Part shown: positions 9,189 through 9,896 of the stretch, piece after piece
How the letters are laid out: every line of letters starts with the position of its first letter
Numbering within the stretch: position 1 is the first letter of the stretch
Assembly: GCA_934678915.1 (NCBI GenBank)
Contig: CAKUSF010000067.1
Coordinates: 1-10,591, forward strand
Reading direction: 5' to 3'
Length of the DNA: 10,591 nucleotides
Source: an uncultured Bacteroidales bacterium
Lineage (GTDB): Bacteria > Bacteroidota > Bacteroidia > Bacteroidales > UBA932
Translations under genes and position numbers: made by a program
The notes under the pieces: generated by a model
The model's input: only the letters and a program-made list of their open reading frames with translations
The model's database searches: none
What the model was told of the DNA's origin: nothing

Positions 9189-9247
9189 ATAGTCTTTCTA
9201 GATTAAGAAAAGGTTAATACTCAGAGTCTTCGCTATCGCCCCAAGAT

Positions 9248-9370
9248 CTATTTTCGAGAGAATTTATACCCCCCCACGGTACTTGTTGCGAAAACATGGC
9301 ACGCCTCGATTTCGCAAACCAAGACCTCTGGTGCGGCATAAGCCCGGAGAATACTGTTTTTACTGTTCAT
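9248..9370 (-). CDS. Small ORF (40 aa) in the leader of the LRR lipoprotein gene, with a G7 tract near its 3' end
   Basis: This is an unannotated-size gene. ATG is at 9368-9370 and TAG at 9248-9250. The product starts MNSKNSILRAYAAPEVLV and continues CEIEACHVFATSTVGG, then YKFSRK. The pattern Tyr-x-x-Pro-Glu-Val-x-Val-x-Glu...Ser-Thr matches, from memory, short Bacteroidales peptides often encoded beside lipoprotein or fimbrillin genes; their function is not known to me. Seven consecutive G (9259-9265, C on the + strand) lie in the Val-Gly-Gly codons. With one G fewer, the frame continues as INSLENRSWGDSEDSEY and stops at 9214-9216 (51 aa), an acidic Trp-containing end that looks more like the family than the basic one seen here. 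With one G more it stops after 35 aa. It sits about 34 nt after a predicted start site and has no SD. I consider it a real gene, probably frame-shifted, phase-variable or affected by a base-count error. Confidence 0.6.
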   Translation of the reverse strand: MNSKNSILRAYAAPEVLVCEIEACHVFATSTVGGYKFSRK

Positions 9371-9409: not shown

Positions 9410-9441
9410 CAAAGTTAGAAAAACTGTTTCGGTTTAGCAAA
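9410..9441 (-). promoter_or_regulatory. Promoter for the small ORF and LRR lipoprotein
   Basis: On the - strand TTTG (9441-9438), a 20-nt spacer and TAACTTTG (9417-9410) form a full-consensus Bacteroidota promoter, with the same spacing as the rpsF promoter. The predicted start is near 9404, so the leader before the lipoprotein ATG is about 215 nt and the small ORF occupies most of it. Confidence 0.75.
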
Positions 9442-9530
9442 TAAAAAAATCGAGGGGTGAAGGTGAAGCAGACTCTCGGCATTTCCGATGCAGTGAAATG
9501 GCTTTTCATCACGGGCGCAATAATACTATA

Positions 9531-9626: not shown

Positions 9627-9896
9627 CTACAGCAGATAGAATGTAGTCTCAAGGGTCTTTGAATATGCTTCCCGCTCCTTCCAAGGATGAGCGTAGCAAT
9701 AACCGATGACCACGCCATCATATTCAAAGACAAAATAAGGGAAGGCGGTGGAAATAGAATTGATGCGGCCACGCATCTCCTCCGTTGTGACTGGTTCTGT
9801 CTCGAAGGTGATGGTGGTCGCTGAAACGTATTTATTGTAAATGGAAGCGATGCGCTCGGCATCGTCTAATCGCACTTGTCTGATGAAACCGTTCAT
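9627..9896 (-). pseudogene. Truncated GNAT N-acetyltransferase (phosphinothricin-acetyltransferase-like), N-terminal half only
   Basis: The frame encodes 89 aa that match the first half of the Pat/MnaT-type GNAT family: IRQVRLDDAERIASIYNKYV, then ATTITFETEPVTTEEMRGRI (27-46), and GYCYAHPWKEREAY at 65-78. Family members are about 160-180 aa and next carry the acetyl-CoA pyrophosphate loop (Q/R-x-x-G-x-G/A); here the frame ends with TTFYLL and TAG, and none of the three - strand frames downstream resumes the homology. The cofactor site is therefore missing and activity is not expected. The ATG directly abuts the flavodoxin TAG (TAGATG), indicating translational coupling in the original operon. 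The break point near 9640 is followed by low-coding sequence, consistent with a deletion that removed the 3' half. Confidence 0.82.

Follow-up and report, generated by a model that had tools for sequence, protein, structure and literature searches.

The poly-G tracts of Neisseria and Campylobacter mostly switch whole proteins on and off. In Helicobacter canadensis, C-terminal phase variation has been proposed for poly-G tracts that lie late in genes; in the part of that account available here, the tracts are 10 bases or longer and sit toward the end of coding regions, as in one case of 322 aa (PMC2823697). For the surface genes of Bacteroides, DNA inversion is the sole phase-variation mechanism named in the available part of PMC11868660. 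The titles and abstract openings of the open-access literature held no description of poly-G switching in Bacteroidales, nor of the small peptide family or the leader RNA motif reported below.

Here we analysed a 10,591-nt stretch of DNA from an uncultured Bacteroidales bacterium (the window, by which we mean this whole stretch), where a G homopolymer lies near the end of a small peptide gene. As in H. canadensis, to the extent that PMC2823697 was available, the tract is a late poly-G whose length would pick among three C-termini, expression not being stopped; indeed, a late homopolymer tract with alternative C-termini, a feature of SSR-mediated C-terminal phase variation, is present in the window. 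Unlike in H. canadensis, the tract would range over G7-G9, and the product is a Bacteroidales peptide of roughly 51 aa. With the slipped-strand poly-G systems of Neisseria and Campylobacter, as portrayed in the portion of the literature on them that was available, it shares the G homopolymer and the surface-linked genes and would share the frame switching, in a different phylum. With the invertible-DNA phase variation of Bacteroides it would have in common the stochastic control of surface molecules, within the same order, although the mechanism there, as far as the available part of PMC11868660 goes, is inversion.

The locus is best explained as a two-gene operon in which a YxxPE peptide gene is followed by the gene of a fimbrillin-like/BspA-LRR surface lipoprotein (Table 1). 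An earlier, sequence-only reading had described a 40-codon ORF with a Tyr-x-x-Pro-Glu-Val core between a full-consensus promoter and a surface lipoprotein, and such an ORF is indeed present on the minus strand, running from the ATG at 9370 to the TAG at 9250-9248 and with a core that reads YAAPEV. The promoter box ends 39 nt before this ATG, and the pattern TTTG-N(18-22)-TAnnTTTG matches three times in the window against 0.16 expected. A sigma-70-type promoter scan of the window gave one match, at chance level and on the other strand, and a terminator scan of the window found none. The lipoprotein carries a Mfa_like_1 (fimbrillin-like) domain and BspA-type leucine-rich repeats (LRR_5). Its start region is AU-rich and predicted to be weakly folded, so that initiation at its ATG (9188) need not depend on upstream translation; coupling between the position of the peptide stop and translation of the lipoprotein is possible, being allowed and not required by this prediction.

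Table 1. Features of the peptide locus in the window and of G-tract leaders at related loci
Feature	Position	Strand	Remarks
Bacteroidetes-type promoter TTTG-N20-TAACTTTG	9410..9441	-	exact match to TTTG-N(18-22)-TAnnTTTG
40-aa peptide ORF as encoded, MNSKNSILRAYAAPEVLVCEIEACHVFATSTVGGYKFSRK	9248..9370	-	stop included
51-aa reading, GGINSLENRSWGDSEDSEY	9214..9370	-	one G skipped; acidic tail of the family type
G7 homopolymer tract (C7 on + strand)	9269..9275	-	codons GTG GGG GGG
Spacer, 51-aa stop to lipoprotein ATG	9189..9213	-	25 nt
Surface lipoprotein, 689 aa	7119..9188	-	lipobox by eye; Mfa_like_1, LRR_5
Candidate leader RNA (alignment A7)	L119:1460-1579	-	35 further besides the four given
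Candidate leader RNA (A7)	L107:1378-1496	-	
Candidate leader RNA (A7)	L158:1114-1230	+	
Candidate leader RNA (A7)	L153:1428-1542	-	
Second-type leader	L196, tract at 1501	+	G10
Second-type leader	L218	-	G9
Second-type leader	L221	+	G10

The seven consecutive G's reported by the earlier reading exist, but it had put them at 9259-9265, ten bases from their true site (Table 1). They fall at codons 32-34 of 40 (of 51 in the shifted reading), which is late in the ORF. When one G is passed over, the product ends in WGDSEDSEY after 51 aa and the stop (9216-9214) lies 25 nt before the lipoprotein ATG, whereas one extra G leads, by direct reading of the sequence, to VGGV-stop and a 35-aa product; both outcomes had been foreseen. 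A G7 run alone is ordinary for the window, with 0.71 expected and at least one in 82 of 200 shuffles. Since GGG is rare in the codon use of the window's genes (24 of 216 Gly codons), the chance of GTG GGG GGG comes to about 0.003, a post hoc figure.

When 5.8 billion proteins were searched with the 51-aa and the 40-aa forms, the same three clusters were returned each time. P0003 (52 aa, 94% identity to the 51-aa form) and P0004 (51 aa, 82% identity) continue in frame into the acidic tail. P0005, the counterpart of the product with one extra G, is 34 aa long and ends in VGGV; its first 33 residues are identical to those of P0004 and are followed by V-stop, as expected if an out-of-frame tract runs into TATAA. 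Each of the three kinds of C-terminus that had been predicted thus occurs, in the 40 aa of the window, the full-length P0003 and P0004, and the cut P0005. If the glycines of these relatives are encoded by GGG, tracts of G9, G9 and G8 are implied for P0003, P0004 and P0005, against G7 in the window, and at the protein level these sequences would support a tract-length polymorphism among relatives. Related sequences appear to show different tract states, but the in-frame state had been taken as six G, whereas the in-frame relatives imply nine; nine G appears to be the in-frame state in nature and the window would be short by two. With three clusters among 5.8 billion proteins, the sample of relatives is tiny.

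The 51-aa form found nothing in the seven nearest genomes, nor did a 3-row model (A2) in 268 relatives of G002, and altogether no close orthologue of the window peptide was seen in sets of 7, 398 or 268 genomes, which overlap and whose empty outcomes prove little. An orthologous locus was also sought by synteny and rejected: upstream of the acyltransferase in the nearest named genomes (stretches L001, L002 and L003 of 2.1, 4.1 and 6.6 kb, 61-66% identity) lie other genes and no like lipoprotein. Among viral contigs, 76 stretches fitted a pattern and none was confirmed, and the window DNA had no match among plasmids.

The small peptide gene is genuine. It is a member of a large family that has no name and is defined here through alignments A3 and A4; the family signature consists of the YxxPE core, a conserved Ser 19 residues after the Tyr, an acidic tail usually with W, F or Y, and a lipoprotein directly downstream. 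In alignment A3 the Tyr, the Pro and the Ser at 19 residues are invariant in 11 of 11 members, and the window peptide has both the core and the spacing. Of the 398 genomes in the family to which the nearest named relative, RUG510 (G001), belongs, 7 gave members with a 3-row model, and an 11-row model found members in 13 of 393 genomes of the order, while 11 of 14 near genomes have a member at E<=0.1. With a 52-row model, members were found in 244 of the 398 genomes of RUG510's family (E<=0.01), and some genomes hold at least 17 family matches. No Pfam or NCBIfam family matched either window frame at E<=1, nor any of 52 family members at E<=0.01.

From loci L008-L185 we obtained 167 distinct family peptides. 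The sequence-only reading had proposed that homologous short ORFs be looked for before lipoproteins in related genomes, and they are there: a lipoprotein ATG follows the stop at a distance of 1-53 nt (median 21 nt) in 133 of the 162 members that could be scored, five being too close to the locus end, as against 67 of 1409 control short ORFs of the same loci, a comparison that describes, like the tail figures below, a set preselected for likeness, because the loci were fetched with the family's own models. By the test used, 29 of the 162 have no lipoprotein. The Bacteroidales family with an acidic aromatic ending named by this reading was borne out as well, since all 147 tails scored in this preselected set are net negative (median -4) and 138 of them have an aromatic residue within the last eight; in the other 20 peptides there is no clear match to YxxP or the tail is shorter than 5 aa. 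Judged by these norms, the 40-aa form of the window has a tail of +3 and a stop 59 nt before the lipoprotein ATG, outside both the acidic-tail and the 1-53 nt norm, whereas the 51-aa reading, with -4 and 25 nt, lies within both. The encoded frame thus breaks two family norms to which the shifted frame conforms. Domains were scanned in 40 of 126 downstream lipoproteins, most of them cut off by the locus end, and 3 of the 40 matched Mfa_like_1 and 2 LRR_5 (E<=0.001); the scanned lipoproteins share the lipobox Cys because of how they were selected.

We rejected the idea that in-ORF tracts are a general feature of the family peptides, as a G or C run of at least seven occurs within only 1 of the 167 peptides, against 0.56 expected by synonymous resampling. 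The sole case, a YxxPE gene of genome G048 (L024:1453-1614, plus strand), has a G8 near the start codon, in the N-terminal part, and its frame is open across the run. Unlike in other members of the family, the in-ORF G tract of the window copy puts the tail out of frame.

Poly-G runs are found instead upstream of the sister peptide genes. Within 250 nt upstream, on the coding strand, 20 of the 167 peptides have a G7-G10 run (17 of them G8 or more and 9 of them G9 or more) and one has C7, whereas the 250 nt downstream of the 167 peptides contain no G7 or C7. A7 and T7 runs, by comparison, occur upstream (13 and 11) and also downstream (11 and 6). In 300 first-order Markov simulations, a mean of 2.7 upstream regions had a G7, with a maximum of 8 of 167. 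The upstream G runs begin 41-172 nt before the peptide ATG, and close homologues differ in run length (G10 in L119 and G7 in L158; G9 in L117 and G8 in L153). By eye, 15 of the 20 leaders have one layout in common and five differ, and a survey of G9 runs across 15 genomes added two further leaders built in the same way. In this layout the tract and a CU-rich stretch able to pair with it (P1) are followed by TATAA-N-TAATCA-N-TTATA, a hairpin (P2), a segment ending in GTGCC and then the peptide ATG. An alignment of leaders (A6) was made from 17 of 25 G-tract leaders, eight being excluded by eye because they depart from the layout (L134, L146, L185, L135, L037, L196, L218 and L221), and in 10 of these 17 an exact TAnnTTTG box starts 64-82 nt before the tract.

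When eight leaders were folded singly, P2 was part of the best structure in all eight and P1 in seven (in L219 the G's pair elsewhere); two folded clearly better than their shuffles (z -2.0 and -3.2) and the other six lay between -0.8 and +0.3. A model search over 44 chosen loci gave 39 matches at E<=1e-6 (alignment A7), all with a G4-G11 run, which is G7-G10 in 34, and the leader ends 34-153 nt before a YxxPE gene in 32 of the 39. All 10 pairs of P2 are changed on both sides among the 39 matches, and P1 varies mainly on one side because its G strand is constant. Taken together, P1 and P2 score 0.337 for covariation; shuffles give 0.220, with none of 500 reaching the observed value, and sliding the partners lowers it to 0.10-0.13. 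Cells that change on both sides number 87 where shuffles give 42.3, and again none of 500 is as high. These scores are favoured by an alignment fitted to the structure. Two stricter measures gave a weaker signal: 13 pairs change on both sides where shuffles give 12.0, a number reached in 193 of 500 shuffles, and there are 47 further pair types where shuffles give 41.9, a number reached in 13 of 500. The leader model matched 42 of 299 genomes of the family (E<=0.001, with rough E-values), and among 22 matches outside the model building (E<=1e-6, chosen loci) a family peptide was just downstream in 15 and absent in 7. Rfam had no match in the window, none in 20 leader loci at the gathering score and none in eight loci at E<=0.1. 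These predictions make a conserved structured leader RNA before YxxPE genes likely, though short of proof. Frames are open by eye in a few of the leaders, but hairpin P2 leads us to prefer an RNA structure over coding leaders. Another type of leader was also seen, in genomes G136 and G433 (Table 1), where a short hairpin (by eye) runs into G9-G10 followed by TAAATT, the tracts beginning 34-39 nt before a lipoprotein ATG.

Poly-G tracts are not confined to the surroundings of the peptide genes. In genome G048, the matches listed include 16 distinct runs of at least nine G's, and the frame pieces were scanned at seven of them. Tracts of G9-G10 lie there in TonB/SusC-type receptors (L205, L230 and L193) and in regulator-propeller proteins (L228, which has a kinase domain, L229 and L236), and the scan gave no protein name for L238. 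At L205, L228 and L236 the upstream ORF ends 5-37 nt after the tract, and at L205 and L228 another frame stays open past it; at L193 and L230 a frame is open across the tract. The G048 tracts suggest that phase variation through poly-G tracts occurs in these Bacteroidales. At L186 (genome G195) a contig terminates in 68 G's, and at L187 (genome G465) long G runs lie near the end of another contig; both are probably assembly artefacts, which would inflate the G9 counts of these two genomes.

For the window we favour a slippage-prone tract that gives C-terminal phase variation of the peptide, the switching being under selection, an account that is unproven and to which we would give an even chance. 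Late in its ORF the peptide gene would carry a poly-G tract prone to slippage, and the length of this tract would change stochastically, and presumably reversibly, through slipped-strand mispairing. With the tract in frame (nine G, as we infer), the acidic aromatic tail would be made and translation would stop 25 nt before the lipoprotein start; with one or two G short, the peptide would lack the tail, being 34-35 aa long or 40 aa long and basic at its end, and translation would end farther upstream of the lipoprotein, on which it may or may not have an effect. Production of the full-length peptide would in this way be turned on and off from cell to cell, the window representing an off state. 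Phase variation is supported by P0003 and P0004 being in frame with P0005 cut, by the tail and spacing norms of the family, which the shifted frame fits, by the codon use at the tract, by the poly-G lengths that differ between close homologues at sister loci, and by the precedent proposed in H. canadensis. Against it count the G7 of the window, which is short for a hypermutable tract, the three clusters of relatives, the single in-ORF run among 167 peptides and the assumption of GGG codons behind G9 and G8. Since in-ORF runs of at least seven are not a family habit, a lineage-specific slippage tract is the best reading. These same figures, near chance in the family (1 of 167 against 0.56) and resting on three clusters, would also suit the main rival, a hypermutable accident or decay, in which a chance G run from Gly codons slips often and the window and P0005 are broken, unselected alleles that stay at low frequency or head for loss. 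We find this somewhat unlikely, as the very small sample holds two out-of-frame alleles (the window and P0005) next to two that are in frame, the stretch beyond the tract in the window is still open, family-like and net -4, and poly-G runs recur upstream of YxxPE family genes.

Homopolymers are a usual site of base-count errors, the window is a single contig and its in-frame reading fits the family norms, so the true tract could be in frame, with G's lost or gained in sequencing or consensus building. Such an error would have to recur, as P0005 looks like an independent out-of-frame allele and G7-G10 length differences are found again at sister loci in several assemblies, and we hold it to be decidedly unlikely. 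Still less probable is programmed slippage of the ribosome or RNA polymerase on the run, by which two or three C-termini would be made from one DNA state: G GGG GGG is a classic slippery heptamer, but a fixed DNA tract length would then be expected whereas the relatives imply differing ones, and the predicted hairpin uses the tract itself, in a stretch that folds no better than shuffles (z +1.26). The tract might finally be a displaced copy of the poly-G leader RNA of the sister operons, with a structural meaning in RNA and not one of frame switching. The window reads GGGGGGGTATAA, as do some leaders, and in its predicted fold the G's pair with CU sequence close by, albeit on the opposite side; yet leader model R1, run with its filters off, had no match at the tract and reached at best 5.0 bits elsewhere in the window, the distance from the beginning of the promoter box to the tract is 142 nt (9417 to 9275) against 64-82 nt in leaders, and the TAATCA box and hairpin P2 are missing by eye. 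This identity is unsupported and appears highly improbable.

Set beside the leaders and the G048 tracts, C-terminal phase variation in the window may be one instance of something wider. Tentatively, and with somewhat more doubt than belief, we suggest that length-variable poly-G tracts are a general device of YxxPE operons, serving as a hairpin strand in many leaders and as a C-terminus switch in the window lineage, and that slipped-strand switching is a route of surface diversification alongside DNA inversion in this order; in the leader version of the same suggestion, the tract would sit some 60-75 nt into the transcript. If this is true, a very large unnamed peptide family, coupled to surface lipoproteins, would be phase-variable by G-tract slippage, and G-tract control would operate in bacteria described with DNA inversion alone in the available part of PMC11868660. 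The switch would be a concrete one, readable in sequence, for which metagenome reads already available could be scored; the conserved acidic tail, together with the leader RNA, would offer two handles on peptide function.

Two further features were seen near the locus. A 13-nt inverted repeat (92%, 9300-9312 and 9447-9459) spans the promoter together with the beginning of the peptide ORF; it could be the trace of an invertible promoter or a product of chance, the latter being possible because three repeat pairs occur in a stretch of 1692 bases. An 89-aa ORF at 9627-9896 on the minus strand resembles what we take to be the N-terminal half of a GNAT-type acetyltransferase, possibly truncated.
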